From Spirochaetaceae bacterium (GTDB taxonomy: Bacteria > Spirochaetota > Spirochaetia > Treponematales > Rectinemataceae): 51,744 bases of DNA. The position numbers were made by a program, and so were the translations under genes. The stretch lies in contig JANXYQ010000011.1 of NCBI GenBank assembly GCA_025355995.1, positions 1-51,744 of the forward strand, given 5' to 3'. Under the pieces are notes generated by a model. The model saw only the letters and a list, made by a program, of their open reading frames with translations. It searched no databases and was not told where the DNA came from. Positions within the stretch are counted from its first letter, which is position 1, and each line of letters opens with the position of its first letter. Shown piece after piece: positions 2,026-20,136 of this stretch.

Positions 2026-2137
2026 GCGCCGCGAAGGTACGTAAAAAATACAAATCCCGTTTTTCGCTATAGAACCTACCCTTAACGCCCATTGGCGTCC
2101 TTTCGCGGTTTTCGTCCACTCGCGCTGGCCCCGCCCC

Positions 2138-2167: not shown

Positions 2168-2170
2168 AAA

Positions 2171-2267
2171 GACACAACCGGGGTGGCTCGGCTGGCCCGT
2201 CGGGCAAAGCCGTAGTCTGAGATCACACCCGCTGAACCTGATCCGGGTAATTCCGGCGGAGGGAGCC
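2171..2267 (+). promoter_or_regulatory. TPP riboswitch (THI element) ending in the thiB ribosome-binding site
   Basis: The conserved THI-box segments are present in order: CGGGGTGG (2179-2186), a variable hairpin around 2190-2212, the T-loop-like CTGAGATCACACCC (2217-2230), and TGAACCTGATCCGGGTAA (2233-2250) followed by TTCCGGCGGAGGGA (2251-2264). This matches the thiamine pyrophosphate aptamer consensus almost base for base. The 3' conserved GGAGGGA contains the GGAGG Shine-Dalgarno (2258-2262), five bases from the thiB ATG at 2268. Ligand-bound folding should therefore bury the ribosome-binding site, giving direct translational repression without a separate expression platform. This fits control of the downstream thiamine transporter. 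Confidence 0.95.
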
Positions 2268-3347
2268 ATGGTCCAATCCTACAAAGGCCGCGCTGGCGGT
2301 CGATCGATCAAATTCCTAACTTTCATCGCCCTCATTCTCTTCGGCTTCGCATGCCAGAGCGCGGCAGCCGCGCCCGCGGCTACTGCCGAAGGAAAACTCT
2401 CGGCTACCGCCGAAGAAAAAACCCTCGTCATCTATACCTACGATTCATTCGTCTCCGATTGGGGAGCCGGCCCGAAGATCGGACCGCTGTTCGAGGCGGC
2501 CACCGCCATAAAAATCAAGTTCGTCTCGAAAGGCGACGGCGGGCAGCTTCTCTCGTCGCTGCTCCTCGAAAAAGGGAGGTCGGAGGCGGATATCGCCCTC
2601 GGCCTGGACAATTTCCTGGCGCCTAAGGCCTTGAGCTCGGGCTTATTCCGCGCCTATGCGCCGGCGTCCTTCGCGGCCATCCCCGCGGATCTCAAGCTCG
2701 ATCCCAGCAATAGGCTCATCCCATTCGACTACGGCAATTTCGCCATCGTATGGGACAGCGCGAAGCTCGCGACGCCGCCAGCCAGCCTCGAGGACCTCAC
2801 GAAAAGCGCCTACGCCAAGAAACTCATCCTCCTCGACCCGAGGACCTCGACGCCGGGCCTGGGCTTCCTCGCGTGGACCAAGGCGGTCTACGGTTCAGCT
2901 TGGCGGGATTACTGGCGACGGCTTAGGCCCAGCGTGCTCATCCTCGCGCCAGGCTGGGACCAGGGCTACGGCCTCTTCACGAGCGGGGAGGCCCCGCTGG
3001 TGCTCTCCTACGCTACCGACGGGGCTTATGGCCTCGAAAACGAAAAATCCGAGCGCTACAAGGCCCTCGCCTTCACCGACGGCTTCGTGCGCCAAGTCGA
3101 GACGGCGGGGATCCTGGAAGCCGCGAGGCATCCAGGGAACGCCGAGAAATTCATGGACTTCCTCCTGTCCCCCGCCTGCCAGCGCGAGCTGCCCCTGACG
3201 CAGTGGATGTATCCCGTGGATCCCTCCGTCGCCCTGCCGGCGAGTTTCCGCGCGGCGGTCAGAGCCGTGAAAACCCTCGCGGCCGATCCTACGGGTCTCA
3301 CCGACGACGCCCTCGAGGCGGCCGAGATCCTCAGCTCGGGAAAGTAG
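2268..3347 (+). CDS. thiB: thiamine ABC transporter, substrate-binding protein
   Basis: Periplasmic or membrane-anchored thiamine/TPP-binding protein that delivers substrate to ThiPQ. The mature N-terminus carries the family hallmark: VIYTYDSF followed by DWGAGP, then an ADIALGLDN segment, as in E. coli TbpA. The 359-aa length is usual for the family. The leader has a hydrophobic core at about residues 16-28 ending in LFGFAC; Cys29 would make this a lipoprotein, acceptable for the relaxed spirochaete lipobox, but cleavage by signal peptidase I after the Ala run near 33-36 is an alternative. The ATG is fixed by the GGAGG five bases upstream inside the riboswitch. First gene of thiBPQ. Confidence 0.95.
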   Translation: MVQSYKGRAGGRSIKFLTFIALILFGFACQSAAAAPAATAEGKLSATAEEKTLVIYTYDSFVSDWGAGPKIGPLFEAATAIKIKFVSKGDGGQLLSSLLLEKGRSEADIALGLDNFLAPKALSSGLFRAYAPASFAAIPADLKLDPSNRLIPFDYGNFAIVWDSAKLATPPASLEDLTKSAYAKKLILLDPRTSTPGLGFLAWTKAVYGSAWRDYWRRLRPSVLILAPGWDQGYGLFTSGEAPLVLSYATDGAYGLENEKSERYKALAFTDGFVRQVETAGILEAARHPGNAEKFMDFLLSPACQRELPLTQWMYPVDPSVALPASFRAAVRAVKTLAADPTGLTDDALEAAEILSSGK

Positions 3348-3358
3348 GGATCGCCCAA

Positions 3359-5020: not shown

Positions 5021-6089
5021 GGGGCTTGCGAAGTCCTGGCCGGGATTCGGCCTCTCGCTCGAACTGAGCCTCGCCGAGGGCGAGGTCCTCGCCGTGCTCG
5101 GGCCCTCGGGCTGCGGCAAATCCACCTTGCTGAGGCTCGTCGCCGGCCTCGAGCGCCCCGACGCGGGTCGGCTTTTCCTGGGAGGTCGCGAGATAACCGG
5201 CCTGCCCCCGGAACGCAGGGGCATAGGGATGGTGTTCCAGGACCTCGCCCTCTTCCCCCATTTAAGCGTTAGGCGCAACATCGAATATGCGCCCAGGATG
5301 AGGGGACTCCCGCGCGGGTTGGCCAGGGAGACGGCCGAAGCCCTCGCCGCCTCCTTCGAGATATCCCCGATCCTCGACCGCGACCCCTATTCGCTGTCCG
5401 GCGGCGAGCAGCAGCGCGTAGCCCTCGCGAGGGCCCTGGCCGCGAGGCCCGCCCTCATGCTCCTCGACGAGCCCCTCTCCTCGCTGGACGCGTCCCTGCG
5501 CCGCCGCCTCAGGTCGGAGATAGCCGAAAGGATCAGGAGGGCCGGAATAGCCGCGATCCTCGTGACCCACGACGCCGAAGAGGCGCTCGCGGTGGCCGAT
5601 AGGATAGCTCTCATGCGCGCGGGCCGCATCGAGGCCGAAGGCTTCCCTCAGGAGCTGTACGACGCGCCTCCGACCGCGTGGAGCGCCGCCTTCCTCGGAC
5701 GGGGGCCCGTCCTGGAAATTCTATCCCTCGAGGACGGGGAGGGCTCGGCCCTTGCCCTCACGCCCCTCGGCCACTTCCGCTGCGCGAACAGGGGCGCAGG
5801 CGCCGTCGGGAAGGCCGCTTCGCTTTTTTTCCCCGCGGAGGCGCCTCGCTCGGCTCAGCGCGCGACGGCTTCCGAGGAAGCCGCCGTAAACCGGTTGTCC
5901 GGGCGAGTCGCCTCGAGCTATTTCGCGGGAAGGTACCGTCGCGTCGCTCTCGATTGCCCAATCGCCGCGGGTCCGTCGAAGGGCGGCAATTTCCGTCTCG
6001 AAATCGAGTTGCCCTCGCCTTTCGTCCCGCGCCCAGGCGAGCGGCTGGAGCTCGAAATACCCGAGGAATCGTGTTTCGCCCTGCCCTAA
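5007..6089 (+). CDS. thiQ: thiamine ABC transporter, ATP-binding protein
   Basis: Cytoplasmic ATPase energising ThiP. Motifs are complete: Walker A GPSGCGKST (32-40), Q-loop Q78, signature LSGGEQQ (130-136), Walker B LMLLDEP (150-156) and H-loop H188. At 360 aa it is some 125 residues longer than E. coli ThiQ (232 aa). The extra C-terminal part, about 235-360, looks like the TOBE-type regulatory domain of PotA/FbpC/ModC ATPases, although its closing segments are divergent. Start ATG follows GGAGGGGAG. The riboswitch and gene order fix the thiamine role; by sequence alone it could be called a generic Fe3+/spermidine/putrescine-type ATPase. Confidence 0.9.
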   Translation: MLEVKGLAKSWPGFGLSLELSLAEGEVLAVLGPSGCGKSTLLRLVAGLERPDAGRLFLGGREITGLPPERRGIGMVFQDLALFPHLSVRRNIEYAPRMRGLPRGLARETAEALAASFEISPILDRDPYSLSGGEQQRVALARALAARPALMLLDEPLSSLDASLRRRLRSEIAERIRRAGIAAILVTHDAEEALAVADRIALMRAGRIEAEGFPQELYDAPPTAWSAAFLGRGPVLEILSLEDGEGSALALTPLGHFRCANRGAGAVGKAASLFFPAEAPRSAQRATASEEAAVNRLSGRVASSYFAGRYRRVALDCPIAAGPSKGGNFRLEIELPSPFVPRPGERLELEIPEESCFALP

Positions 6090-6132
6090 GCGCATTACTT
6101 GCAGGAATAATCGCATTGTGCCGGGATCGTAC

Positions 6133-6160
6133 TTGATCGTCGGGCGGATAAGCCTATAAT
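6133..6160 (+). promoter_or_regulatory. sigma70-type promoter of the Memo/AMMECR1 pair
   Basis: TTGATC (6133-6138) and a perfect TATAAT (6155-6160) lie 16 nt apart. The predicted start of transcription is 6167-6168, which coincides with the first in-frame ATG (6168). Either the mRNA is leaderless from that ATG, or translation starts at the second ATG (6180), which has AAGGAG at 6171-6176. Confidence 0.6.
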
Positions 6161-6179
6161 TGAGCGTATGAAGGAGACT

Positions 6180-7010
6180 ATGGGCCAGGTTAAAGTGAGG
6201 GACGCCACGGTTGCGGGAATCTTCTATCCCGACGATCCATCGGAACTCGAGGCGCGGGTGGCATCCCTCCTCGAGGCGGCGAAACCCGGGACCAAGAACG
6301 CGAAAGCCATCCTCTCTCCCCACGCCGGGCTGGATTACTCCGGGGACCTCTCGGCCCTCGCCTGGAAGTCGGCTTCCGACCGGAATATCGACACCGTCCT
6401 CATCCTCTCGCCCCTCCATCGAGCCGAGGAGAACCAGATATTCCTCCCGGAGTCGGATTACTTCGAGATACCCACGGGAAGGATAATCGTCGACAGGGAC
6501 CTCGTCGACGAGATGAAGGATTGCGGGACCCTCATGAGCGTCAACGACATCCCACACTTCGAGGAGCACGGGATCGAGCTGCAGCTCCCCTTCATGACAG
6601 CGCTCTTCCCGGCGGCCCGGCTCGTTCCCGTGCTCATGGGCAAGCCGAGCCAGTCGACGGTCAAGGCCCTCAGCTCCGCGCTGTCCATCGTCTTCGCGAA
6701 TCGGATCGAAACCACGCTCGTCGTGCTGTCCTCCGACCTCGGCTCGGCGACCGAGGAGCATATCGCCGCCGCCTGCGCCGACCGCTTCCTGCGCAGCTTC
6801 CTCGCCGCGGACGCCAAGGCCCTCCTCGACGACCTCTCGACGGTCGAGGGCTGCGCCTGCGGCACCGGTTGCTCCTCCGCCTTCTTCTCGTCCGGCCTGT
6901 CGCGGGGGACCAAAGCCAGGTTGCTGGCCCGGCACGATTCCTCGGCGAGCAGGGAGACGGGCGAGGAGCGGCTCGTGCACTACGCCGCGATCGCCCTCAC
7001 CGATGACTGA
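6180..7010 (+). CDS. Memo-family protein (AmmeMemoRadiSam system protein B)
   Basis: Member of the Memo1 family, distantly related to class III non-haem-iron dioxygenases; the bacterial biochemical role is unknown. Recognisable features are the N-terminal TVAGIFYP, SPHAGLDYSG (with the conserved His of this metal-type site), LSPLH, the EEHGIELQLPF block containing a second conserved His, and a C-terminal Cys-rich CACGTGCSS segment. The length of 276 aa is normal for the family. The start is ambiguous: 6180 has AAGGAG but only a 3-base spacer, while 6168 is 12 bases earlier and lies at the predicted transcription start. The 3' end overlaps the AMMECR1 gene by 8 bases, marking the two as one unit. 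Confidence 0.88.
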   Translation: MGQVKVRDATVAGIFYPDDPSELEARVASLLEAAKPGTKNAKAILSPHAGLDYSGDLSALAWKSASDRNIDTVLILSPLHRAEENQIFLPESDYFEIPTGRIIVDRDLVDEMKDCGTLMSVNDIPHFEEHGIELQLPFMTALFPAARLVPVLMGKPSQSTVKALSSALSIVFANRIETTLVVLSSDLGSATEEHIAAACADRFLRSFLAADAKALLDDLSTVEGCACGTGCSSAFFSSGLSRGTKARLLARHDSSASRETGEERLVHYAAIALTDD

Positions 7011-7578
7011 TGCCTCGGTATTCTCCGAAATAAGCGAATCGGACGGGGCGGTGCTCCTCGCCAACGCCCGCGAGGCCATAGCCTCGCGGCTCGAGGGCAG
7101 GTCGTCCCGCTGGCCCGTGGCTGGCCTCTCCCTATCGGCGGAGCTCGGGGCCTTCGTCACGCTGCGCTCCGGCAAGGGTCCGGACGCCGCCCTCCGCGGT
7201 TGCATCGGCCGAATGGACGCGAAGGAATCCCTCGTCCGCACCGTGCGGGCGATGGCACTCTCCGCCGCCTTCGAGGATCCCCGCTTCCCTCCCCTCGAGC
7301 GAGGCGAGCTCTCGAAAACCTCGATAGAGGTCACCGTCCTGACGCCGATGAGGCAGATAGCGAGCGTCGCGCAGATCGAAGTGGGTCGCCACGGCGTCTA
7401 CCTTTCCAAGGGCTGGCATTCGGCGGTCTTCCTCCCCCAAGTCGCCACCGAGCAGGGTTGGGGACGGGACGAGCTATTGGTGAACCTATGCTACAAGGCG
7501 GGCCTTCCGGCGAACGCGTGGAAGGAAAGCGATACGAAGTACCAGGTCTTCGAGGGAAGGATCTTCCCGGAAGCCTAG
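7003..7578 (+). CDS. AMMECR1-domain protein (AmmeMemoRadiSam system protein A)
   Basis: AMMECR1-fold protein of 191 aa. The family signature LRGCIG is at residues 64-69, followed by the DPRFPPL block and the C-terminal segment GWHSAVFLPQVATEQGW with the nearby LCYKAG. AMMECR1, Memo and a radical-SAM enzyme form a conserved bacterial trio of unknown function. Only the first two are in this window: upstream is thiQ and downstream a convergent FemAB-like gene. Translation is likely coupled to the Memo gene (8-base overlap). It ends tail-to-tail with the next gene, sharing 4 bases. Confidence 0.92.
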   Translation: MTDASVFSEISESDGAVLLANAREAIASRLEGRSSRWPVAGLSLSAELGAFVTLRSGKGPDAALRGCIGRMDAKESLVRTVRAMALSAAFEDPRFPPLERGELSKTSIEVTVLTPMRQIASVAQIEVGRHGVYLSKGWHSAVFLPQVATEQGWGRDELLVNLCYKAGLPANAWKESDTKYQVFEGRIFPEA

Positions 7579-8678
7579 TTTCCCGCCCGAGCCGGCCTCT
7601 TCAACCGTTTCTTGAAATCCTTGAACCACCAGGCCCTCGCGGACTCCGCCGCCCTGAAGCAGGCGTAGGCGAACGGCATCAGGGGATAGTCCCAGGATCC
7701 GGCGCGATGCGCGATCTCGCCACCGAATCCCGTCTTGAACCGGTAGAGGCCCGCCATGGGATGCCCGGGGTCGTCGGTAGGCGGAATGCCGAAAAGGTCG
7801 TAGCGCGAGCAGCCCACGGCCTTGGCCGCTCGCATGGCCGACCACTGCAGGGCGTAGGCGGGCATGAGATTGCGTTTCTCGTCGGAGGATGCGCCGTAAA
7901 GATAGACCGCCTCGGCGCCGCGGTAGAGGGTCACTATCGCCGCCAGCGCCAGGCCCTCGTGCCGCGCGATGAATAACCTGATATCGGGAGTCCCGGGAAC
8001 GCCTGAGGCCCGGCGCTCGGCGGCCAGGGAGAAGAGCCGCGAATAATAGGCTTCAGGGTGAAGCGCGATCCGGTCTCTCCGCGCGGTCTCGCGATAGAGC
8101 GCGTAGAAATCATGTAAGGACCCGAGGCCGGTTTCCTCGACGACTACGCCCTTCTTCTCGGCAAGGCGCACGTTGTAGCGCCACTTGCTCTTCATCGCCG
8201 CGAGGATGGCGGCCTCGTCAGGCCGCAGGTCGACGAATACAGTGTCGGGAGGCTGGACGTCCGCCGCGGCGCGCCTGAGAGGCTGGCTTAGGCGCGGCCG
8301 CAGGCTTTCGACCTCGCGCGATCCGGCCCTCTCCTCGTCCCAGCCGATCGCCTCCGCGGCGTACCAGGGCGGGTCGAAGCGAACGAAGAGGCAGCGCGGC
8401 GGCAAGAAGGGCCGGAGCGCCTCGGATAGCTCGGCGAGAAAAGCGGTGCGCTCGGTCTCGGGCACTTCCACCTCCGGGCCGTGCGGCGAATAGGCGAAGC
8501 AGTATCCTGCGGGAAGGCGACGAACCAAGAGGAGGAAGGCGCCATGTGCCGAAGCGCCCTGAATAGAGAAGCGAAGAGGCCTCCATCCGTATTCGGACTT
8601 GAAATCGCCCCAGAAGGCCGACTGCAGGAAAGTCGCGGAGGAATCGCTTCCGTCGAGGAGAGAGACGCGCAGGCTCAT
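7575..8678 (-). CDS. FemAB-like peptidoglycan interpeptide-bridge aminoacyltransferase
   Basis: Cytoplasmic, membrane-associated GNAT-fold enzyme that by family would transfer an amino acid, usually glycine, from aminoacyl-tRNA to the stem peptide of lipid II. Landmarks are KSKWRYNVRLAEKKG (163-177), the double-GNAT motif YLYGASS (259-265), YDLFGIPP (293-300) and LYRFKTGFGG (311-320), all typical of FemX/FemA. At 367 aa it is shorter than S. aureus FemA (about 420), consistent with the single-protein FemX type, and I see no inserted coiled-coil arm. The start is 25 bases after the metG stop, so the two are probably cotranscribed. The amino acid and the tRNA it uses cannot be read from the sequence. 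Confidence 0.85.
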   Translation of the reverse strand: MSLRVSLLDGSDSSATFLQSAFWGDFKSEYGWRPLRFSIQGASAHGAFLLLVRRLPAGYCFAYSPHGPEVEVPETERTAFLAELSEALRPFLPPRCLFVRFDPPWYAAEAIGWDEERAGSREVESLRPRLSQPLRRAAADVQPPDTVFVDLRPDEAAILAAMKSKWRYNVRLAEKKGVVVEETGLGSLHDFYALYRETARRDRIALHPEAYYSRLFSLAAERRASGVPGTPDIRLFIARHEGLALAAIVTLYRGAEAVYLYGASSDEKRNLMPAYALQWSAMRAAKAVGCSRYDLFGIPPTDDPGHPMAGLYRFKTGFGGEIAHRAGSWDYPLMPFAYACFRAAESARAWWFKDFKKRLKRPARAGN

Positions 8679-8703
8679 TCGGCGATCCCCCGGTGCCCCT
8701 CCC

Positions 8704-11019
8704 CTAGCCTACCTCACCCTCTGGCACGCGGGTGATGACGAAGGGGCGTTCGCCGGCGACGAGCCGAGAGGCTCCGATAGTCGCGAAACCGCCTACGGCG
8801 GCTATGGGCACGGAGAAGAAGGCGTCGACATCGATTTCACCGACCTCGCCGGGAAGGGGCCTGCCCGCAAGGGAAACCCGCGTGCCCGGAGCCGCGTCGC
8901 CGGCGTCCAGAACCTCGACGGCCTCCTTGACGCTTGCGCCGCCTTCGCCCTCGACCTTTCTCGAGGCGGCGAGGAGCATGCCCCTAGACTCGACGCCGCG
9001 AAGCTTGGCGGGCTTGAGGTTGTTGACGAGCACGATGCTCTTGCCTAATAGCTCATCCTCTTTATAGAAGGGGACGAGGCCCGAGACGATCACGCGCTCG
9101 ACTCCCGTGCCGTCGTCGAGGGTCTCGATATACAGCTTGTCCGCCTTGGGATGGCGCTCGACCTTGATGATCTTCGCAACGCGAAGGTCGATGAGCCGTT
9201 CGAAGCGCTCCTCTACGGGCAGGCCCTCATAGGGAACCGGCTTGGGCTCCGGCGGAGCGGCCTTCACGGCGGCGGTCACGGCGGCAGCGGCTGTCGGTAC
9301 CGTCGCAGGGGCGGCGGCGGAGTCGCGCTCGGCCCTCTCCTTCTGCGTGCCCGAGTATTTTTCGCGGAGCTCGGCGATGCGGTCATCCTCGAGCTTGGAG
9401 AATAGGACCTCGGGAGCGGTGATCGCCCCGAGCCCGCCGAGGGTCCCGATATCGGCCCAGGAGAGCCCTCCGGCTCCGCCTATGGTTTTGCCGAAGAACG
9501 CGGCGAGCTTGGCCGCGGAAGCCGGCATGTAGGGATGGATCATTATTGCGAGGTCGCGGAGCAGGTAGCAAAGCTCGCCGATGAGGGCGGCGGCGGCGGC
9601 GGGATCGCTTGTCCTGGTCTTCCAGGGCTCGCTCTCCTGGAATCTCTTGTTGGCGAGGTCAGACAGCTCGAAGGCGGCGCGGAAGGCGTCTCGGAGCTCG
9701 GCGCGCTCGAGGTGGGCGGCCGCTCGCCTCGTTATCTCCTCGGCCTTGCCGCGGAAGGCCGGGTCGGAGGGTAGGGCGGGCGGCACGGGGACGGCGCCGC
9801 CGAAATAGCGCGCGACGAATGTTAGGGTCCTGTTGGCGAGGTTGCCGAGGTTGCCGATGAGCTCGCCGTTCACCTTTTCCTGGAAGTCGGCCCAGGTGAA
9901 TGTGGTGTCGCCCCGCTCGGGGCGATTGTAGAAGACGTAGAAGCGCCAGACGTCGGCCGGTATGCCCGACTCGACCGCGTCGGTCCCGAAGACGCCCACG
10001 CCCTTGGACTTGGAGAACTTGCCCGATTCGTAGTTGAGGTACTCCGAGCTCGACATGTGGTGGAGCATGGTCCAGTTCTCGCCCGAGCCCAGGAGGCTCG
10101 AGGGGAAGATGACCGTGTGGAAGGGGATGTTATCCTTGCCGATGAACTGGAATAGCTCGACGTCGTCGGGGCGCTGCCACCAGTACTTCCAGTCGAAGCC
10201 CTGCTCGTCGCCGGCGCAGGCGGTTATCGAAATATAGCCGATCGGCGCGTCGAACCAGACGTAGAAGACCTTGTCCTCGTAGCCCGCCTTCGGGACGGGT
10301 ATGCCCCACTTGAGGTCGCGGGTGATGGCCCGCTCCTTCAGGCCGTCGCGGATCCAGGCTTGGGTCATCTGGATCGCGTTGTTGGCCCAGAAGCCATCGA
10401 CACTCGCCTTCCTCATCCAGGTCTCGAGGGCCGGGCGTATCGCGGGAAGGTCGATATACAGGTGCGTGGTGCTCTTGGGCCGCGGCGTCGCGCCGCAGGT
10501 CGAGCACTTCGGGTCCTTGAGCTCGGTGGGATCGAGGAGCTTGCCGCAGCTCTCGCACTGGTCCCCGCGCGCGCCGTCGTAGCCGCAGTGGGGGCAGGTG
10601 CCGCGCACGTAGCGGTCGGCCAGGAAGCGCTTGTCGCTGTCGCAGTAGAGCTGCTCGATGGTCTGGCTCTTGACCAGCCCCCTCTTGTCGAGGTCAAGGA
10701 AGATAGCCTGCGTTATCTCGGTCTGGCGCTGGGTCGAGGTGCGCCCGAATTTATCGAAGGAGATGCCGAACCAGGAATAGATGTCGCGATGGATGGCGTG
10801 GAAGCGGTCGCAGAGCTCCCTCGGCGTGATCCCCTCCTCGAGGGCCTTGGTCTCGGTAGCGGTGCCGTATTCGTCGGTACCGCAGACATAGAGGGTCTCG
10901 TAGCCGCGAAGCCTGCAGAAGCGGGCGAAGACGTCTGCCGAGAGGACCTGTATGAGATTGCCGAGGTGGGGGACGTTGTTGACGTAGGGAAGCGCGGAGG
11001 TGATCAATCGTCGTTTCAT
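8704..11019 (-). CDS. metG: methionyl-tRNA synthetase with C-terminal tRNA-binding domain
   Basis: Class I synthetase charging initiator and elongator tRNA-Met. Class signatures are HLGN (18-21) and KFSKS (334-338, the KMSKS loop with Phe for Met). The connective region carries three CX2C pairs (C142/C145, C155/C158, C172/C175), enough for the zinc knuckles of the E. coli-type enzyme. After the anticodon-binding helices a roughly 40-residue Ala/Pro/Thr linker leads to a C-terminal EMAP/Trbp111 OB-fold (about residues 620-770; DLRVAKIIKVERHPKADKL) used for dimerisation and tRNA binding. Total length 771 aa. No Shine-Dalgarno is visible before the ATG, and the predicted transcription start is only 2-3 bases upstream. 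Confidence 0.97.
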   Translation of the reverse strand: MKRRLITSALPYVNNVPHLGNLIQVLSADVFARFCRLRGYETLYVCGTDEYGTATETKALEEGITPRELCDRFHAIHRDIYSWFGISFDKFGRTSTQRQTEITQAIFLDLDKRGLVKSQTIEQLYCDSDKRFLADRYVRGTCPHCGYDGARGDQCESCGKLLDPTELKDPKCSTCGATPRPKSTTHLYIDLPAIRPALETWMRKASVDGFWANNAIQMTQAWIRDGLKERAITRDLKWGIPVPKAGYEDKVFYVWFDAPIGYISITACAGDEQGFDWKYWWQRPDDVELFQFIGKDNIPFHTVIFPSSLLGSGENWTMLHHMSSSEYLNYESGKFSKSKGVGVFGTDAVESGIPADVWRFYVFYNRPERGDTTFTWADFQEKVNGELIGNLGNLANRTLTFVARYFGGAVPVPPALPSDPAFRGKAEEITRRAAAHLERAELRDAFRAAFELSDLANKRFQESEPWKTRTSDPAAAAALIGELCYLLRDLAIMIHPYMPASAAKLAAFFGKTIGGAGGLSWADIGTLGGLGAITAPEVLFSKLEDDRIAELREKYSGTQKERAERDSAAAPATVPTAAAAVTAAVKAAPPEPKPVPYEGLPVEERFERLIDLRVAKIIKVERHPKADKLYIETLDDGTGVERVIVSGLVPFYKEDELLGKSIVLVNNLKPAKLRGVESRGMLLAASRKVEGEGGASVKEAVEVLDAGDAAPGTRVSLAGRPLPGEVGEIDVDAFFSVPIAAVGGFATIGASRLVAGERPFVITRVPEGEVG

Positions 11020-11066: not shown

Positions 11067-14000
11067 CTAAAACGAGATCACCGCGTTCAGACCGAGCTCG
11101 AGGGATAGCGAGAGGGCCTTGGTCGACGCGTCGAGGGATTGGCCCGACGCGACATCGACCTTGAAGGTGAGGCGCTCGGGTACGGTCAGCTTGGCCTCGT
11201 AGGACTCCGAGAAATTCCAGCCGGGGGAGTAGGAGGCCGCGTCCCCGGCGAGCCCGGAGAGCCCCGCCCGAGCCGTTATCGTCGTCCTCGCTATCGGCGT
11301 CCTCGTCGCGAGGTCCCTCAGGTAGAGGGAGGCTATCGACGCGGGCTTCCCCTCGCCTTCCCCAACGGGTTTCGGTGTGGGCTCGGCGGACTTGGCCGCG
11401 AGGGCGTACAGGTCCAGGAGGGGATGCCGGGCCTCCCTACGCGACAGTGAGAGCGAGATCGAGCCCGACCAATCGAGCTTGCCCGGCCCGTCGACGAGGG
11501 AGAGCTTGCCCTCGGCGTCCAGCTTGTCCGATTCCCCGGCGTAGAGCGTCGAGAGTCCGTGGTACTGGAGGTCGAGGCTCGACGCGCTGCCGTCCCTGGG
11601 CTCGTTGAGGCTCGCCTGCAGCGTGCTCAGGTACTCGTCGCTGTCGAAGGGAAGTCCGAGCGGGTAGGCGCCCATGGAGCCGAAGAGGTTCACTGCGGCG
11701 AACTTGGCGATCACCGACCAAAGCCCCGAGTCGGTCTGCTGGTCCGCCGATAGGGAAAGGACGCGGCGGAACGAGAACGAGAGGGCCGAGGGCGCCACGA
11801 AGTCGTACCACATCGATCCGTATTCCCGGGACAGGGTCAGGCCCGCCTCGGGCTCGAGGCTCGCCTCGAGTAGAGCGGTGCCGGCGCTCGCCGATTGGGA
11901 CGAGAAATCCTCGGCCGCCTTGGCCGAGGCGAGCTCGGCGAAGGGGAGACCCTGGTACAGGAGCGGCAGGCTCGAGATGTCCCCGAGCGCGGCGGCGGCG
12001 TCCCCCAGGATGCCGCTCGATAGCACCGATCGCTTATCAGTCCACGAGCGCGAGTAATAAGGCTCGATTTTCGCGTAGGCGGTCTCGAGAGGGAGGGCCA
12101 ACCTGATAGCGGCCGAATCGCGCCTCAAGGCCCCGCCCGCGGCTGCCGGCTCGGCGCTCTCGCCGAGCGAGGCGGAGAGATACTCCTTGGCGTCGGTTCC
12201 TTTGATCGAGAGCCGCGCCTTGGCCTCCCGCGCCTCCGACTCAGCCTCGAAAGCCGGTAACGCGTAGTCGAAGGCCCCGATCCAGGCCGCGCCGTAACCC
12301 GCGCCGGGGCCTCCCGGCGCGGCCGCGCTTTGGGGCCGCGATCGGTTGGCGGCCGAGATGCCGATCGTCGCGATCGAGGGCCCGAGGATTATGGAGCCGT
12401 TCCAGGACTGCGTCAGCATTCCCCGGTCGAGGATAGCCTGGGCCGGGACCCACTCGGTCGACTGTTCCGCGCTTATCGCTCCGACCTTCCCCGCCCGCAA
12501 AGCGGCGGAATCCGACCTCCCGAAGGCGCCGGTGCCGGGATCGAATTCGAAGCTGTCTTTTGCCTCCGCAGGGAAATCGGCGGCGGGAATCGCGATGGTA
12601 TGCCCGCCACTGAGGGATGCCGCGGAATCGGCGGCGACGACGGCTCGCGCCCGGACGCCGATCCGCGCGAATGGCACAGTGGCCTCGAGGGAGGCGTCCC
12701 CCGAGGCGTAGGGCGCCGCGTCGAGGGCCGCCTGCACGTCGGCCGAAGCGGAGAGGCCGGGATTCGCGTAGGCTGCCCGGCCCTGGAACAAAAGGGCCGC
12801 CCTGCCTATCGAATCCTCGAGCAGCACCTCGTCGACCCACGCGGATTCCGAGGCGAGGAGGCCCGTTACCGCGATAAAAAGCCGGGATCCCGTGCTCGAG
12901 AGCGCGGGCGTCGCGTCGATCGAAGCCAGGGCCAGGGCGGTCTCCGCGTCGCCTTCGGCGTCCTGGTAGGTCAAGCTCGCCGCGCTGCTCCCATAATGCA
13001 GGTAGAATCGCCGCCACGCGCCCGTCCCCGATCCCGCGCGCAGGCTGATCGCGATGCTCGAGGCCGGCGAGGCCGCGCCGTCGTCCAAGGCCAGGGACAG
13101 CGCGGTGGTAACCGGGAATTTCGCGAAAAATGAGATCGTCTTGAAGGATGCGTAGGGAGGAGCGGCCTCAACCTTGTATATGGCGGCCGAGCCCGAGGGC
13201 GAGAGGCCGGCGGCTATCTGGACGGCCCTCTGCGTCGAGCCGTCGGAGTGGAGGCTGGCGATTGTCTTGGGAAAGGCGACGGCGAGCTCCGTCTCGGCCT
13301 TCTCGGCGACCGAATAGCCCGTGGACGGGGGCGCGGTGTCCAATCTGAAAGTGGAGGAATAGGCGCTCGCCGACTCCATGCCCTCGATGCGATAGACTCC
13401 CGTCGCGTCGTCCCGCGAATACCTGGCGGCGATCGCGGCGTTGTGGGTAAAGGCGCCGTCCGCGTCCTTCTCGCCGGCCGTGAGATCGATGCTGCCGGGA
13501 GCGGTCCTGGAATCCGAGGCGAAGCTCGATCCGGGCAGGGACCAGGATGCGCCAAGGGCCGCCCAGGCGCTCAGGCCCTCGCCGAAGTCCCAGAAGCCGC
13601 CGAGGGCGCCTTCGAGGATCCCCGACCTTCGCTCGGTGCTCTGCTTCATGTAGGACACGACTATTTCTTCGGTCGCGCTCGGCGGGGGGACGAGGGTGAG
13701 CGTGCCCTTATCGGCATCGACGGAAAATGAATAGGCCGGAATTCCGTCGCGCGTCACCTCGATGGATCCGGCCACCAAGTCTTTGTCGATCGCTATGGTC
13801 TCGGAGGCGGAAAAGCTCCGGACGACCACCGATCGCGTATAGACGGGGGCGTTCCCGCTCTTCGCGTCGCTCGAGAAATCGGTCGTATAAAGCCAGTCCA
13901 TGCCGGCGTAGGCAGGGGACTCGAAGGGCCGCCTATACGCATTCCTCTGCGCGGCGTCGGTGGCGGAGGGGCTCCCGGCGTCCGCGCGAGTCACCTCCAC

Positions 14001-15071
14001 GTAGCCCTCCGAATCGATCGTCGCGGCGAAGGAGGGGTCCCTGAGGCCCGACGAGGGATTTCGCACGAAGGCCTCCGCGGAGCTCGCGCCGGCCGTGGTG
14101 GCGTAGCGGCTCAGCACCTGCAGCTTCGGGTCCAGGGAGACCGCCGTCGTCGGGTCGGCCGGCGGGTCGTAGAGGAGGTCGCAGGCGCCGATGCCGTCGA
14201 GGGCGACCGCGTCCGCGTCGCTCCCCGAGAGCGGATAATACGCGAGCACCCTCGTGGTCGCGGCCGTCGCGAGGACGGCCAGGCCCGTGATCGCCGAATA
14301 GGAATACTCGCCTGGATCGAGCTTTCTATAGTAGTCGGAGCCGCCGGCGATCGTGCCCGAAACGCTCTTAACGTAGATGGCTAGGTTGGTCGCGGGAGCC
14401 GCCCTCGTAAGGAAGAATTTACCCTGGACGAAAGCGTTGGGCGAGAGCTCCGTGTCGACGACCTCGGTGCGCCCCACGAAGCGCTTCACGACGCGATCGG
14501 CCTGGTCGTAGCGGACCATGGCCCTTCCAGTGAAGGACTCCGTACCTATCCAGGCGGCGGCGCCGAAGGATCGGTAGGAGACGTCGCCGAAGGCGAGGAA
14601 TGGAAGAGAGGGGAAGGATATTCCGTCGTTGCCCAGCCTCGCCTCGCGGAGGAGTTCCCCCTTCCCTCCCCTGTAGCCCATCGAGTACTTGGCTTGGGAA
14701 ATATCGTCGGCTATGCGCGCTTCGACGAATATCTTCTTGAGCAATAGAAAGGAGAGCGAGAGGTCCGGAGCCTGAGTGAAGAGGAGGGGCTGCGCCGAGG
14801 ACAGTACGAGGGTTCCCCCGGACTGGGCCTGCAGGTCGAGCGAGGCGAGGACCGTGGCCGACCAGGAGCCACTTATGAAAAGTTGGGCGTCGTCGTCGGG
14901 CCCCTTCCCGAGCTTGGCGCTGAATACGCTCGCGGGCGCTTCCTGCGGCAGGGCCGATTTCATGGGGGAAGGGATCGCGCCGACCCCGCCCTCGGCCGAC
15001 TCCTTGCCGATCGCCGTCGCCAAGAGCAGGGCGAACAGGGCCTCTCGCGCGCGGCGTCTTTCTTTTCGCAT
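11067..15071 (-). CDS. very large exported protein, probable beta-barrel outer-membrane protein
   Basis: I do not recognise a named family. The 1334-aa protein starts with a basic stretch (MRKERRRAREALF) and a hydrophobic leader consistent with export. The rest is Ala/Ser/Gly/Tyr/Asp-rich with frequent alternating beta-strand patterns and almost no cysteine. Around residues 430-480 a unit of the form VTRDGIPAYSFSVDADKG then LTLVPPP and IVVSYM resembles beta-sandwich repeats in SprA-like surface proteins; this is a weak resemblance. The C-terminus, LSLSLELGLNAVISF, ends in Phe after alternating hydrophobics, the classic signal read by the BAM complex. I infer an outer-membrane barrel or secretion component. 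The start is the only ATG before the leader; no Shine-Dalgarno is obvious. A hairpin with a T-tract follows the stop. Confidence 0.7.
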   Translation of the reverse strand: MRKERRRAREALFALLLATAIGKESAEGGVGAIPSPMKSALPQEAPASVFSAKLGKGPDDDAQLFISGSWSATVLASLDLQAQSGGTLVLSSAQPLLFTQAPDLSLSFLLLKKIFVEARIADDISQAKYSMGYRGGKGELLREARLGNDGISFPSLPFLAFGDVSYRSFGAAAWIGTESFTGRAMVRYDQADRVVKRFVGRTEVVDTELSPNAFVQGKFFLTRAAPATNLAIYVKSVSGTIAGGSDYYRKLDPGEYSYSAITGLAVLATAATTRVLAYYPLSGSDADAVALDGIGACDLLYDPPADPTTAVSLDPKLQVLSRYATTAGASSAEAFVRNPSSGLRDPSFAATIDSEGYVEVTRADAGSPSATDAAQRNAYRRPFESPAYAGMDWLYTTDFSSDAKSGNAPVYTRSVVVRSFSASETIAIDKDLVAGSIEVTRDGIPAYSFSVDADKGTLTLVPPPSATEEIVVSYMKQSTERRSGILEGALGGFWDFGEGLSAWAALGASWSLPGSSFASDSRTAPGSIDLTAGEKDADGAFTHNAAIAARYSRDDATGVYRIEGMESASAYSSTFRLDTAPPSTGYSVAEKAETELAVAFPKTIASLHSDGSTQRAVQIAAGLSPSGSAAIYKVEAAPPYASFKTISFFAKFPVTTALSLALDDGAASPASSIAISLRAGSGTGAWRRFYLHYGSSAASLTYQDAEGDAETALALASIDATPALSSTGSRLFIAVTGLLASESAWVDEVLLEDSIGRAALLFQGRAAYANPGLSASADVQAALDAAPYASGDASLEATVPFARIGVRARAVVAADSAASLSGGHTIAIPAADFPAEAKDSFEFDPGTGAFGRSDSAALRAGKVGAISAEQSTEWVPAQAILDRGMLTQSWNGSIILGPSIATIGISAANRSRPQSAAAPGGPGAGYGAAWIGAFDYALPAFEAESEAREAKARLSIKGTDAKEYLSASLGESAEPAAAGGALRRDSAAIRLALPLETAYAKIEPYYSRSWTDKRSVLSSGILGDAAAALGDISSLPLLYQGLPFAELASAKAAEDFSSQSASAGTALLEASLEPEAGLTLSREYGSMWYDFVAPSALSFSFRRVLSLSADQQTDSGLWSVIAKFAAVNLFGSMGAYPLGLPFDSDEYLSTLQASLNEPRDGSASSLDLQYHGLSTLYAGESDKLDAEGKLSLVDGPGKLDWSGSISLSLSRREARHPLLDLYALAAKSAEPTPKPVGEGEGKPASIASLYLRDLATRTPIARTTITARAGLSGLAGDAASYSPGWNFSESYEAKLTVPERLTFKVDVASGQSLDASTKALSLSLELGLNAVISF

Positions 15072-15132
15072 CGATTATGGCTATGATAACCCGGAAAATG
15101 AGCAATGGGAAGAATCGGCCGGAGCCGAGCCT
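15072..15132. promoter_or_regulatory. divergent promoter region between the OMP gene and the YlxP gene
   Basis: On the minus strand TTCCCA (15111-15106) and TATCAT (15088-15083) are 17 nt apart, leaving 11 bases to the ATG of the large OMP gene. On the plus strand TATGAT (15082-15087), at nearly the same bases, could be a -10 for the YlxP gene, but I see no good -35. The two -10 boxes would overlap, so the promoters would compete. Confidence 0.35.
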
Positions 15133-15420
15133 ATGGTAGTCTCGATGCTCGACATCGTGATGGAACTCCCCGAGGCGACCTCCATCAAGGACAAGCGCCG
15201 CGTGGTCTCCTCCCTGAAGACCCGGCTGCGCACGAAATTCCGAATTTCATGCGCCGAGGTAGGGCTCCTGGACTCCCTCGCCTTCGCGGAGATAGGCGCC
15301 GCCCTCGTCTCCAATTCGAAAGAATTCGGGGAGGGGGTGATGCACAAGGCCCTTGCCGTAGTAGAGGACGAATTGGGCGTCCGCATCCACGACGCCCAAA
15401 TCCATTCGGAAGTTTATTGA
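15133..15420 (+). CDS. YlxP-like DUF503 family protein
   Basis: Small protein of 95 aa with the full DUF503 signature: an MLDIVMELPEATSIKDKRRVV-type start (ATSIKDKRRVV visible), then SLKTRLRTKFRISCAEVG, then VVEDELGVRI. Family members are ferredoxin-fold proteins sometimes linked to ribosome maturation (YlxP/RbfB in Bacillus); that role is knowledge of the family, not visible here. In Firmicutes ylxP sits within the nusA-infB operon; here it is some 33 kb away from it. GGAG at 15121-15124 precedes the ATG by eight bases. The frame is open upstream but lies antisense to the OMP gene, so I reject earlier starts. Confidence 0.88.
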   Translation: MVVSMLDIVMELPEATSIKDKRRVVSSLKTRLRTKFRISCAEVGLLDSLAFAEIGAALVSNSKEFGEGVMHKALAVVEDELGVRIHDAQIHSEVY

Positions 15421-15465
15421 GGTCCTTTGGTGTATAGTATCGATATCCGGAATAGGGGGTACACC

Positions 15466-16572
15466 GTGCGCCTTTCCCGCATCGCCTTGAGCCTGCTTCT
15501 GCCCATCGCCGCCCTGTCGGCGGCCCCGAGTCCCGCCGCGACCGCATCGCCCGCGGTAGCGGAGATGAGCGCCTACCTTTCCAAGGCCCAGGACGCAGCC
15601 GACTCGAATCACCTCGCCGAGGCTATTCGGTCGTACGTGACCGTGCTGGCCCTCGCGGACGAAAGCCCCTCGACCGACGCGAAGGCGAAGGCCGACGCGG
15701 CCTCGGCCGAGCTCGCGCGGATCGGCACGAGGCTCACCCTGGAGCCCAGCTCCGAATGGATCGACGCGAAGGGGACTCAAGCGGCGGGAAGCTCGAGGAG
15801 CCTCGGCAAGGAGGGCGGCCTCTCCCCGGCGGTCTACCTGTTCGACAGCTTCGGCTCCGGCAAATCGCCGGTCGCCGACGCGCCCATCTTTTTCCAATTC
15901 GTCAAGAATACCGGCTCCCTCGTCTCCTTCGTCACGACGGATGCCTACGGCAAGGCCAACACCACCGTAGCCAAGGTAGGCGAGCCGGGCAGCGACGCGG
16001 TCATACGGGCCTTCCCCGTCTTCAAGGCCCGGGGGAAATCCTACGCCTTCCAGTCAGTCTTCAGGGACTTCGCCTACTTGCCGCCGGCCAACGTGGTCAA
16101 GATCCTCGCGCTCGAGAGCTCCGAGCTGGGCCTGAGCGACAATCCCCGGACGGTGGACCCGGCCGCGGCGGCGCTCAAGCAAACCGGACTGCAAATACTG
16201 CCTTTCAACGCGAAACTGGCGCCCGAGGTTTTCCGCAGGGCCTACGGGGGCGAGGTCAAGGCCCTCTCGGCCCTCGGCGTCGACGCGACATCCCCCTACG
16301 CGGCCTTCGCCCTCGTGGAGGTCGCCGCCGCGAGGCAGATGGAGCTCAATGGGAAGAAGTACAACATCTACACGGCGACCGCGCCCCTGAGCTTCAGGCT
16401 GGTCCGGGCGGACGGAACCATCGTGTACGCCCTGTCCCTGGACAACATCAAGGGACAGGGCGGGACCAAGGAAGCCGCCATAGCCGACGCCTACAAGCGG
16501 GCCGGCGACGCGATCGGGCCCGAGCTGACCAAGAGGCTCGACGATATCCGCTCTTCCTTGACGAAGGAATAG
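15466..16572 (+). CDS. exported protein of unknown function
   Basis: A 368-aa protein with a clear signal peptide: RLSRIALSLLLPIAALSAAPSPAATA, probably cleaved near residue 20-25. A short helical, TPR-like stretch (about 40-85) is followed by a beta-rich domain. The C-terminal 120 residues (AAFALVEVAAARQMELNGKKYNIYTATAPL, here split as AAFALVEVAAA and NGKKYNIYTATAPLSF) recall LPP20/FlgP-type outer-envelope proteins, but I would not name it. I chose GTG at 15466 because AGGGGGT (15454-15460) lies five bases upstream; a TTG at 15427 would add 13 hydrophilic residues in front of the signal peptide. It ends 7 bases from the convergent dinB. Confidence 0.72.
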   Translation: MRLSRIALSLLLPIAALSAAPSPAATASPAVAEMSAYLSKAQDAADSNHLAEAIRSYVTVLALADESPSTDAKAKADAASAELARIGTRLTLEPSSEWIDAKGTQAAGSSRSLGKEGGLSPAVYLFDSFGSGKSPVADAPIFFQFVKNTGSLVSFVTTDAYGKANTTVAKVGEPGSDAVIRAFPVFKARGKSYAFQSVFRDFAYLPPANVVKILALESSELGLSDNPRTVDPAAAALKQTGLQILPFNAKLAPEVFRRAYGGEVKALSALGVDATSPYAAFALVEVAAARQMELNGKKYNIYTATAPLSFRLVRADGTIVYALSLDNIKGQGGTKEAAIADAYKRAGDAIGPELTKRLDDIRSSLTKE

Positions 16573-16579
16573 CCGTTCC

Positions 16580-17812
16580 CTAAGGCGCCGGCTCGCCGCC
16601 TCGCGGGCCGGGGCGCCCGCGGTTCTCGCGCCGGCCGACGAGGCGGGCCCGCGTGACCTTCCCCAGGCCGCTCCGCTCTATCTCGAAGACGGCTCCCTCC
16701 GCCCTGCGCGACCGCGCCGTACCCTCTCCCGAAAGGCCGTCGGCGAAGAGCTCGCCCTGCTCGCAGGAGCCCCGGCTCTCGAGATCCGAGAAGCATAGGC
16801 CGAGCAGGCGTATCTCGGTCCTGCCGTCCCAGGCCTTCTCGAGGAGGGCGAGCGCGTCCTTGAACGAATCCGAGGAGGATAGATAATAGGAGCCCCTCGA
16901 CATCCGGCGCGATAGCGTCGTGAAATCGTGAAGCCTGAGCTTCAGGGCGAGCGTACGGGATCGATAGCCCTCCGCCCAGAGCCTGTAGGAGAGCTCTCCC
17001 GCGAGGGAAAGCAGCACGTCCTCGACGCATTCGCGGTCCGAGCAGTCGCGCTCGAAGGTAGTCTCCGCGCTCATGGAGCGCGGACCCTGGTCCGACGAGG
17101 TCATCATGCCCGAGTCCCGCCCGCGGGCCGCGCCGTAGAGGAAGGCCCCGCCGGCCTTGCCGAAGAGGGACGCGAGGCGGGCCTCGCTGAACGAGGCGAG
17201 CTCCGCGACGGATCGGATGCCGAGCTCGCGGAAGCGCTCCTGGGTTTTCTCCCCCGCGCCCCAGAGCTTAGCCAGGGGCAGCTCGAGCATGAAGGCCTCC
17301 GTGCCTTCTGGATGCACGACTACGAGCCCATTCGGCTTGCGTAGCCCCGAGGCGATCTTGGCGACGTAATGATTGGGCGCTATGCCGATGGATATGCTGA
17401 GGCCCGTCGCGGAGGCTACCTTCGCCTTCAATAACGCGGCGGCGTCCACGGGCGGCCCCCATAGCCGCTCGGTCCCGGTCATGTCGAGGAAGGCCTCGTC
17501 GATGGACACGCGCTGCACCTCCGGCGTAAACGAGGAGAAGACGTCCATGACCGCGGCGGAGAGCTCGGAGTAGCGCTCTATGCGCGGCACGAGATAGATC
17601 CCCTGGGGACAGCGTCGGAAAGCCTCCGAGATCGGCATGGCCGAGCGTATCCCGAAGGCCCTCGCCTCGTAGGAGCAGGTGGAAACCACCCCCCGATGGC
17701 CGGGCAGGGCGCCGACGATGACGGGCTTCCCCCTGATGCTGGGATCGTCGTTCTGCTCGACCGAGGCGAAGAAGGCATCGAGATCGACGTGGAAGATTAC
17801 CTTGGGCGTCAT
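16580..17812 (-). CDS. dinB: DNA polymerase IV (Y-family translesion polymerase)
   Basis: Error-prone polymerase for lesion bypass. The catalytic acidic residues are D10 in HVDLDAFF and D105/E106 in SIDEAFLD; F15 matches the steric-gate position that excludes ribonucleotides. Palm, fingers, thumb and little-finger domains are all present within 410 aa, against 351 in E. coli. A clamp-binding motif QGELF sits at 352-356 and is not terminal: some 50 more residues, Arg/Gly-rich, follow it. The ATG overlaps the stop of the upstream membrane gene by 4 bases (ATGA), so translation is probably coupled. I see no LexA-type operator. Transcription entering from upstream would first have to pass the intragenic terminator at 18428-18457. 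Confidence 0.95.
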   Translation of the reverse strand: MTPKVIFHVDLDAFFASVEQNDDPSIRGKPVIVGALPGHRGVVSTCSYEARAFGIRSAMPISEAFRRCPQGIYLVPRIERYSELSAAVMDVFSSFTPEVQRVSIDEAFLDMTGTERLWGPPVDAAALLKAKVASATGLSISIGIAPNHYVAKIASGLRKPNGLVVVHPEGTEAFMLELPLAKLWGAGEKTQERFRELGIRSVAELASFSEARLASLFGKAGGAFLYGAARGRDSGMMTSSDQGPRSMSAETTFERDCSDRECVEDVLLSLAGELSYRLWAEGYRSRTLALKLRLHDFTTLSRRMSRGSYYLSSSDSFKDALALLEKAWDGRTEIRLLGLCFSDLESRGSCEQGELFADGLSGEGTARSRRAEGAVFEIERSGLGKVTRARLVGRRENRGRPGPRGGEPAP

Positions 17813-20136
17813 TTGGGGCCCGAGCCGATGGAGAAGCTCGCCCTCACGGAGAGGCCGTTGTCCGCGAGGGGCGAGAGCGAGGACTGCGCGTATGCGTCGA
17901 GCGACGAGAGGTACCGCGACGTTACGACGAGCCGCGATCGGAACGAGGCGGGCACGGTGAGCGAAAGGTCGAGCTCGGGCCCCGGGTTAACCCCCGAGTA
18001 GATGATCGCGCTTTTACCGTCGACCGCCACCTTGTATGGAAGGTTGCAATCGTAGATAAGCATCGCCGCCTCGGACTCGAGGGCGATATCGACTCGATAG
18101 GGCCGCGTCGCGAAACGGATCGCAACGGACTCGTCGACGCGGTCGAGGAAGGGGCTCGACTTCTCGGTCATGCCGATCCTCACCTCGTTGTCAGCGCCCT
18201 TCAGGTAGGCCCTATCGCCGAGGGAATCGTACTCGAGCCGCGCCCCGCCGCGCTCGATGTAGCCCTTCCCGAGCCTTCTCCGGCCCGAGAGCTCCAGCTG
18301 GAATTCTCCCGCGTCCTGGTCTATCGCCTCGGATACGGCGAGGTCCTTGCGTCGGGGTCCCGATAGAGGGGCCGACAGCCCGGCGTACGCGAGGGCCAGG
18401 ACCTCGACGGCGATCGCGCAGGCGGCGAAAAAAAAGACCGCCCTTTTTCGGGCGGCCGCGCCGGGGCGGGCGAAGAAAAGCAGGGGGCTCGCGGTGAAGG
18501 CGAAAAAGGGGAGAGTCAGCGCGGAGAGCGCGAGGACGCCCAGGTATTCCGGCGCGATGAGCTTCCCGAAGGTGGAGAGCTCCGGACGCGCCGCGAGCTC
18601 CGCCGCGATCACCAGGAGGGGCAGGTACATGAGGGCGTAGGCGAGGAGGGTCACCCATCGCCTCCTCGCCGCCAGGGACAGCTCGACGAAGACGAGGGCC
18701 CATATGAAATAGAAGGAGGCCGAGAGATCGACCGCCGAGAAGACGAGGGAATCTATCGCGAGGCAGACCAGGGCGGCGAATTCGTAGAAATAGGGGTTGG
18801 GCGTGAGGATACGCTTCTCCACGAGATAGGAGAGCATCGATAGGAAGAGCAGGAAGGAGAAGAGTATGCGCGCCGCGGCGAAGATCCGAGGGGAGAGCCT
18901 CCACGCCTCGGCCGACCCGAGGGCGGCCGCGTCTAGCCATGCGATGCCCTTCCCCGCGATAAACACGAGGGCGAGGGCTGCGAAGAGCGCCAGGATCTCC
19001 GCTGCGATGACGGGCACCCGCCGCAACAGCCGCCGAGAGGCGGACCTGCGGGCGACCGTCGCGATCAAGAAAGAGCTCGCGACGAGGGCGAAGGCAATTA
19101 CGAGGAAGGCCACGTAGGATCCCTCGCGAAGCGCGACGCTAAGCTTCGCCAGCTGGAAGATGAAATAGTGCCTATCCCAGGTGTCGGCGAAACCACCCCG
19201 CTCCTGGTTCGCGAAGGCTCCTACGAAGGTAGCGAACCAGCTCGCAGCGGGCTCACCCATCGCCGCCTCGCCGGCCGCCATCTCGCCCCGCAGCTCGATC
19301 GCTGGGATTCCGGCCTCGAGATAAGGGGCGGCGGGGCCGTAATCGCTCGCGAGGGCGAGCCTGTAGGCCTGTAGCCGGTTGGTCTCGATGCCGTAGGCTA
19401 TGCCCGAGCCCTCCAGCGCCCTGCCCGTCCCCTCGTAATACCAATAGGGCGCGATGACTCCCGAGCCGGCGCCGCGCGCCGTGACTCTCGCCGGGACGTC
19501 GTCCATGCTCAGGTAAAGGACCGCGAGGCGCGTCCTGCCCTCCTGCCGAGCTATCCAGGCGCTCGACCCGAGGGCGCTTACCGCGTGGTCGGAGGCCCTG
19601 CCCCGCTTCTCCGCCCCGAGAAAGACGAACCTGAGGCTTATCGGACAAACGGCTCCCGCGCGGACCTCGGCCGACAGCCGAGCGGCCTCGTCGAGGGCCA
19701 AGGCGATGCCGTAAGCTCCCTCGGCGGACTTCGGCGAGCGGGCCGGCGAGTCCACCCACGTGCTCACGGGCACGATTACAGCGAGTTCGTCCTCGCGGGC
19801 GCCTTTCGCCCTCGCCTCCACGATCCGCGAGTTGGAGAAATTCGCGTCCGCGTCGGAGAAGCCGCGCGCCGAGGGCTCCAGGCCGGCCGCCTTCAACTCC
19901 CTCTCGATATACGCGAAGGCGGCGGCCTCGCCCTCCGAGCCTTCCGCCCTGGGCCCTAGCGCGGATATCGCCGCGACACGTTCGCCGATGTCCGGCGCGT
20001 CGAGGGACGGCGCGACGATGGGTGACGCCGCGGGGCCGGGGGCCGCGTAGAGGGCCGACGCGAGGAGCAAGGCAGACGCGGCCAGGCGATGTTTTCCCAC
20101 GCTTCGAGCATAGGAAGGGGCCGAGGACTTCGTCAA
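17809..20136 (-). CDS. membrane protein with a degenerate M28 peptidase domain
   Basis: 775-aa protein: signal segment or first membrane helix (15-35), an extracytoplasmic M28-like domain (about 45-330), about eight membrane segments (about 345-590) and a beta-rich C-terminal domain. The peptidase fold is recognisable from AFAYIERELKAAGLE, FVFLGAEKRG and YLEAGIPAIELRG. The metal site is not: the usual H-x-D has become W127-V-D129, the GADDN segment reads SAEGA (137-141), the Glu pair is E176-K177, and the late SDH reads SDY. I infer a pseudo-enzyme that binds peptide or has a structural role. Start TTG at 20136 has GAGGT nine to ten bases upstream; no in-frame ATG exists before the signal segment. 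It overlaps dinB by 4 bases. Confidence 0.75.
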   Translation of the reverse strand: MTKSSAPSYARSVGKHRLAASALLLASALYAAPGPAASPIVAPSLDAPDIGERVAAISALGPRAEGSEGEAAAFAYIERELKAAGLEPSARGFSDADANFSNSRIVEARAKGAREDELAVIVPVSTWVDSPARSPKSAEGAYGIALALDEAARLSAEVRAGAVCPISLRFVFLGAEKRGRASDHAVSALGSSAWIARQEGRTRLAVLYLSMDDVPARVTARGAGSGVIAPYWYYEGTGRALEGSGIAYGIETNRLQAYRLALASDYGPAAPYLEAGIPAIELRGEMAAGEAAMGEPAASWFATFVGAFANQERGGFADTWDRHYFIFQLAKLSVALREGSYVAFLVIAFALVASSFLIATVARRSASRRLLRRVPVIAAEILALFAALALVFIAGKGIAWLDAAALGSAEAWRLSPRIFAAARILFSFLLFLSMLSYLVEKRILTPNPYFYEFAALVCLAIDSLVFSAVDLSASFYFIWALVFVELSLAARRRWVTLLAYALMYLPLLVIAAELAARPELSTFGKLIAPEYLGVLALSALTLPFFAFTASPLLFFARPGAAARKRAVFFFAACAIAVEVLALAYAGLSAPLSGPRRKDLAVSEAIDQDAGEFQLELSGRRRLGKGYIERGGARLEYDSLGDRAYLKGADNEVRIGMTEKSSPFLDRVDESVAIRFATRPYRVDIALESEAAMLIYDCNLPYKVAVDGKSAIIYSGVNPGPELDLSLTVPASFRSRLVVTSRYLSSLDAYAQSSLSPLADNGLSVRASFSIGSGPK
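18428..18457 (-). terminator. intrinsic terminator inside the M28-like gene
   Basis: On the minus strand, the sense direction of the gene, GGCCGCCC (18457-18450), loop GAAAAA, GGGCGGTC (18443-18436) forms an 8-bp stem with one G-U pair, followed at once by eight T (18435-18428). It lies at about codon 565 of 775, so it would truncate the transcript before the last 200 codons and before dinB. It encodes the ARKRAVFFF boundary of a membrane helix, so chance through codon choice remains possible. Confidence 0.6.

Follow-up and report, generated by a model that had tools for sequence, protein, structure and literature searches.

Background

The Type 9 secretion system (T9SS) moves proteins through the outer membrane by way of a giant pore, SprA/Sov (TIGR04189), represented by the 2403-residue SprA of Flavobacterium johnsoniae (PDB: 6H3I and 8GL6). 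In this organism SprA is a capped 36-strand barrel with a lateral opening, where PorV docks, binds the C-terminal domain (CTD) of the substrate in the pore and carries the substrate out (PMC10994853). Published surveys place the T9SS only in Bacteroidetes (PMC4793230, with 60 systems and none in other clades; PMC7463736) or in the Bacteroidetes-Chlorobi-Fibrobacteres superphylum (PMC12421860), and we found no description of SprA or the T9SS in spirochaetes in the open-access literature, though subscription papers and preprints were not covered. Two other groups of outer-membrane proteins are relevant here, namely LptD, which is also a large barrel, and the UPF0164/FadL-like proteins of treponemes (PF03687).

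Here we examine a large gene in a 51,744-nucleotide stretch of DNA from an uncultivated spirochaete (henceforth the window). We show that it encodes a remote homologue of SprA/Sov, and that it co-occurs across genomes of its class with a PorV-like barrel and, often, with one giant exported protein ending in a Por-secretion/FlgD-Ig-like domain. These observations suggest a divergent Type-9-like export pathway in a phylum in which that system has been reported absent.

Results and discussion

A conserved spirochaete gene for a large protein predicted to be exported and beta-rich

A sequence-only reading of the window had proposed that this gene codes for a barrel-like surface protein of no recognised family, with an export leader, a beta-rich body low in cysteine, SprA-like sandwich repeats at best and a C-terminal strand ending in Phe, which might be a major outer-membrane component or a secretion channel. 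The interval indeed holds a single uninterrupted frame, on the minus strand, which that reading had not stated (Table 1). Although the DNA is GC-rich (66% GC), it is a real gene rather than a chance frame, as the nearest relative keeps it at 60% identity over its full length without stops. The leader (MRKERRRAREALFALLLATAIG...) is Sec-like by eye, and the protein contains one cysteine in 1334 residues. The gene is single-copy in its own genome, and no related gene was found in the plasmids of PLSDB. The divergent intergenic region upstream (15072-15426; 355 bp) exists as claimed, but the gene's own terminator that was also claimed was not found: no terminator-like site follows the stop in our scan, and metG starts 48 bp further on the same strand.

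Table 1. Features of the SprA-like gene and its neighbours in the window
Coordinates	Strand	Feature	Support
11067..15071	-	SprA-like outer-membrane barrel protein (predicted), 1334 aa	open frame; homologues in 21/39 relatives
14979..15071	-	signal-peptide-like leader, residues 1-31 (boundary approximate)	basic then hydrophobic N-terminus kept in homologues
13632..14891	-	residues about 61-480, block most clearly homologous to SprA	profile alignment to SprA-like proteins of other Spirochaetota classes
14295..14783	-	residues 97-259, aligned to solved SprA residues 170-305 (GN...P, SFG, RYDQ, GxxFFL motifs)	profile alignment; invariant columns G135, G170, R187, G200, F220
13647..13769	-	residues 435-475, GSIEVTRDG..FSVDADKGTLTL....IVVSYM strand-pair motif shared with the SprA-like profile	aligned in both profile comparisons; V439 and I470 nearly invariant
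12801..13316	-	residues about 586-757, beta-rich middle domain	model strands; Laminin_G_3 hit (E 3.1e-4) in 1 of 16 members
11070..12884	-	residues about 730-1334, predicted C-terminal barrel of long antiparallel strands	AlphaFold model strands of 10-17 residues; generic porin barrels align
11070..11108	-	C-terminal strand LSLELGLNAVISF with terminal Phe (outer-membrane-protein assembly signal type)	F1334 invariant in 16 sequences
15427..16572	+	divergent neighbour, 381 aa exported protein conserved beside SprA-like genes (neighbourhood cluster c6)	gene-neighbourhood clustering; no Pfam hit
16580..17812	-	dinB (DNA polymerase IV), conserved upstream neighbour	Pfam IMS 9.9e-49
17809..20136	-	multi-TM protein conserved upstream of dinB and the SprA-like gene (neighbourhood cluster c1)	gene-neighbourhood clustering; no Pfam hit
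8704..11019	-	metG, methionyl-tRNA synthetase	Pfam tRNA-synt_1g 1.4e-157

Profile comparisons reveal remote homology to SprA/Sov

Searches of Pfam, NCBIfam and PDB with the single protein recovered nothing, including any SprA model, so that the absence of a recognised family holds for single-sequence searches; however, it is false at the profile and fold levels. A profile of 16 homologues detected the family in 204 of 395 genomes of its class and, more thinly, in other classes of the phylum, with lengths running from about 1140 to 2000 residues. Two of the 16 members matched TIGR04189 weakly, and four other genomes matched it weakly in the same N-terminal region. In contrast, members from other classes of the phylum matched it strongly in this region (E = 1.4e-33, 1.2e-23 and 5.6e-7 for the homologues L049, L051 and L055), albeit all below the curated 200-bit cut-off. 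We then compared the family profile (A1) with a profile of such SprA-like proteins from other Spirochaetota classes (A7) using hhalign and obtained an alignment with a probability of 99.9% and an E-value of 1e-31 over 709 columns; a tighter profile without the most distant members (A2) gave E = 1.9e-20. Directly against solved SprA residues 170-305, profile A1 scored E = 1.4e-5 in the same register, while reversed and shuffled controls gave 0.26-0.93. A profile of the distant members (A6) run against PDB gave no SprA hit by sequence, and direct support for SprA accordingly rests on TIGR04189, the 170-305 segment and the predicted fold. Thus, the similarity to SprA extends well beyond the sandwich repeats of the sequence-only reading. 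Nevertheless, the protein is 1334 rather than 2403 residues long, and no class member that was scanned reaches the TIGR04189 cut-off (0 of 60 class genomes). Accordingly, we place it in the SprA superfamily as a remote member by homology, and not in the TIGR04189 equivalog, whose cut-off it does not reach.

The predicted structure is closest to SprA

We modelled residues 55-1254 with AlphaFold from nine aligned sequences and without templates, so that this evidence is separate from the sequence link, though both rest on the same family alignment. The model is of middling confidence (pLDDT 67, pTM 0.43) and lacks the last 80 residues; a second model, of the homologue L047, is weaker (pLDDT 63). 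The first model displays N-terminal strands, a beta-rich middle domain and then a long run of antiparallel strands typical of outer-membrane barrels, with roughly 28 strands of 9 or more residues plus shorter ones. The first three PDB hits recovered by Foldseek are the SprA structures 8gl6, 8gl8 and 6h3i (E = 8.6e-20, 5.3e-19 and 2.1e-18), followed by LptD at 6.2e-6. A second fold aligner ranks generic porin barrels first (Z about 14), because the C-terminal barrel dominates its list, but aligns SprA over 808-832 residues spanning model residues 45-1092, i.e. almost the whole model (Z 11-12). No support emerged for an enzyme or a soluble fold.

The position of LptD as the second fold family raises the alternative of an LptD-like lipid transporter of the spirochaete outer membrane. 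We consider this very unlikely, since SprA is 13 orders of magnitude better, the homology to SprA extends over about 700 columns, and no LptD-type Pfam domain was detected in any of the 33 members scanned (16 and 17 in two sets). Another alternative is a structural or porin-like surface barrel or adhesin that merely descends from SprA and has no translocation function. The truncation relative to SprA and the match of the C-terminal half alone to generic porins would be in line with this. However, it appears improbable, given that the most distant relatives keep the SprA-homologous N-terminal block rather than the C-terminal barrel, and that a PorV-like partner co-occurs with the gene, as described below.

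Co-occurrence with a PorV-like barrel and a giant exported protein

We next searched for candidate partners elsewhere in the genomes, which the sequence-only reading had missed. Among 30 relatives, hits to the curated PorV_fam model (NF033709) at E<1e-10 occur in all 19 genomes with the SprA-like gene and in one of 11 without it. These reach 8.4e-22 in close relatives; the own genome has a hit at E = 2.7e-18, below the curated cut-off of the model. The PorV-like gene in the own genome (G000) lies elsewhere in the genome (G000:C100:36181-37413), and the PorV-like barrel belongs to the UPF0164 family of Pfam (PF03687; E = 5.5e-46), although the PorV-like profile hits solved PorV only at E = 0.33. 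A large TPR-like protein of 1000-1085 aa encoded beside the PorV-like gene was examined as a SprE candidate, but showed only generic TPR similarity in PDB, which leaves its role open.

The T9SS sorting-domain model TIGR04183 (Por_Secre_tail) likewise detected a single domain per genome in nearly all matching genomes, over its cut-off in 10 of 30, including the own genome. The domain sits at the extreme C-terminus of a giant ORF, which in the own genome (contig C106) codes for at least 2788 aa of a repeat-rich protein; a complete example (L084, 2269 aa) starts with a signal-like leader. The assignment as a T9SS CTD should be viewed with caution, because by PDB sequence search the domain is closest to FlgD Ig domains and not to solved T9SS CTDs.

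Profiles built from these proteins were then run over 198 class genomes. The PorV-like profile, with one strong copy per genome, gave counts of 109/8/7/74 (both, SprA-like only, partner only and neither; P = 2e-36), and the CTD profile, with nearly always one strong hit per genome at the end of long ORFs, gave 76/41/5/76 (P = 2e-18). Seventy-three genomes have all three genes and 73 have none. The P-values are not corrected for phylogeny and are only indicative; presence and absence switch together within several families (in our numbering, family f1, treponeme genus g25, and f16 genus g55 against g92), and most of the few discordant genomes are fragmented assemblies. Both partners are unlinked to the SprA-like gene.

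A possible Type-9-like translocon

Taken together, these results favour the secretion-channel reading. The most likely function of this protein, to which we assign a probability of about 0.7, is that of a translocon in a divergent Type-9-like pathway dedicated to the giant CTD-bearing protein. Under this proposal it is exported by Sec, inserted through its C-terminal Phe strand and forms a wide pore; by analogy with SprA, the PorV-like barrel would dock on it and take the giant protein by its C-terminal domain, and the latter would leave through the pore to the cell surface. The lateral gate, the docking, the translocation and the energy source are all inferences. No GldM-type motor was found with TIGR03517 in the own genome or across 30 relatives, though this search was silent in its controls too. 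A C25/PorU sortase is not conserved, with no PF01364 match in the own genome and a strong one in only one of 30 relatives. The absence of hits for these components would also be in line with the porin-like alternative above. Relative to the T9SS of F. johnsoniae, the present system would comprise a shortened translocon and apparently one cargo instead of many.

It remains possible, though less likely, that a barrel with the SprA fold does a different job, exporting or inserting something else such as lipid, polysaccharide or lipoproteins, with the CTD protein being unrelated. The lack of a CTD hit in 41 of 117 SprA-like genomes, the failure to find a GldM motor, the LptD fold match and the FlgD-Ig-like nature of the CTD are consistent with this. 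On the other hand, the PorV-like barrel, whose counterpart is the direct partner of SprA in Bacteroidota, co-occurs almost one to one, and CTD proteins are nearly confined to SprA-like genomes, with 5 exceptions of which 4 have the PorV-like gene.

More speculatively, and about as likely as not, Spirochaetota might possess an unrecognised, phylum-wide pathway of this type, with a shortened SprA translocon, a single PorV/UPF0164 carrier and one dedicated giant CTD adhesin, possibly without the GldLM motor. A 1.1-Mb treponeme-family genome (its size is consistent with T. pallidum, an identity that is inferred) has neither the SprA-like gene nor the CTD but several divergent UPF0164 genes; on this view, its expanded FadL-like antigens would be relics of the carrier. 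Such a system would give treponemes and their relatives a route for putting giant proteins on the surface, would suggest that the T9SS core is older or more widely spread than thought, and would offer a possible origin for the UPF0164/FadL-like outer-membrane antigens studied in syphilis vaccine work.

Gene neighbourhood and a single ORF with dinB

Examination of the gene contexts showed that dinB and the multi-TM protein recur beside the SprA-like gene in several families. Interestingly, in five treponeme-family genomes dinB and the SprA-like gene form a single ORF of about 1970-2094 aa, and in two of these no in-frame start codon lies between DinB and the end of the signal-like stretch, an arrangement for which we have no explanation.

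Gene contexts of the SprA-like family

Examination of the gene contexts revealed that DNA polymerase IV (DinB) and the SprA-like outer-membrane protein form one continuous ORF in five treponeme-family genomes (Table). In two of the respective loci, L073 and L075, no in-frame start codon lies between DinB and the end of the signal-like stretch, so internal initiation at ATG/GTG/TTG cannot separate the two; processing by signal peptidase is one possible resolution. In the window, an exported 381-aa protein of unknown family is conserved divergently beside the SprA-like gene, and in other genomes a small lipoprotein (neighborhood cluster c3) lies between them. In contrast, in other orders the SprA-like gene is followed by a 450-500 aa exported protein with no Pfam hit and a FecR-domain protein, often with mutL next, an operon-like arrangement that is absent from the window.

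Potential partners encoded elsewhere in the genome

The giant repeat-rich ORF of the window's own genome (G000) codes for at least 2788 aa, being cut by the contig end, and ends in a conserved FlgD-Ig/Por-secretion-like domain, of which there is nearly always one strong copy per genome. The PorV-like barrel is part of a conserved locus, in which it is divergent from a 1000-1085 aa TPR-like protein and then, where complete, a 1530-1600 aa exported sensor with BNR, HAMP and SpoIIE phosphatase domains. Interestingly, a 1.1-Mb genome (G034), whose size is consistent with T. pallidum, has several divergent UPF0164/PorV-like genes although the SprA-like gene and the CTD protein are absent, raising the possibility that the FadL-like antigens derive from a lost secretion carrier. 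We also recovered a strong Peptidase_C25 (gingipain/PorU-type) match (E 1.3e-48) in one treponeme-family genome (G029), which is absent from its same-genus relative G026.

Table. Locations of the features discussed in the text (L, extracted locus; G, genome; C, contig)
Feature	Source	Coordinates	Strand
DinB/SprA-like continuous ORF	L024	2434-8382	-
DinB/SprA-like continuous ORF	L073	4658-10675	-
DinB/SprA-like continuous ORF	L074	4319-10468	-
DinB/SprA-like continuous ORF	L075	4595-10510	-
DinB/SprA-like continuous ORF	L080	3276-9560	+
Exported 381-aa protein	window	15427-16572	+
SprA-like gene followed by exported protein and FecR-domain protein	L023, L048, L064, L067, L069-L071
Giant repeat-rich ORF	G000:C106 (L081)	61442-69804 (2437-10803 in L081)	- (in L081)
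PorV-like barrel, TPR-like protein and (where complete) sensor locus	L101 (own genome C100)	170-9630	
PorV-like barrel, TPR-like protein and (where complete) sensor locus	L102, L103, L091		
Divergent UPF0164/PorV-like genes	G034:C1	593450-594553, 934860-938791, 944973-946094	
Peptidase_C25 match	G029:C1	2368092-2369168
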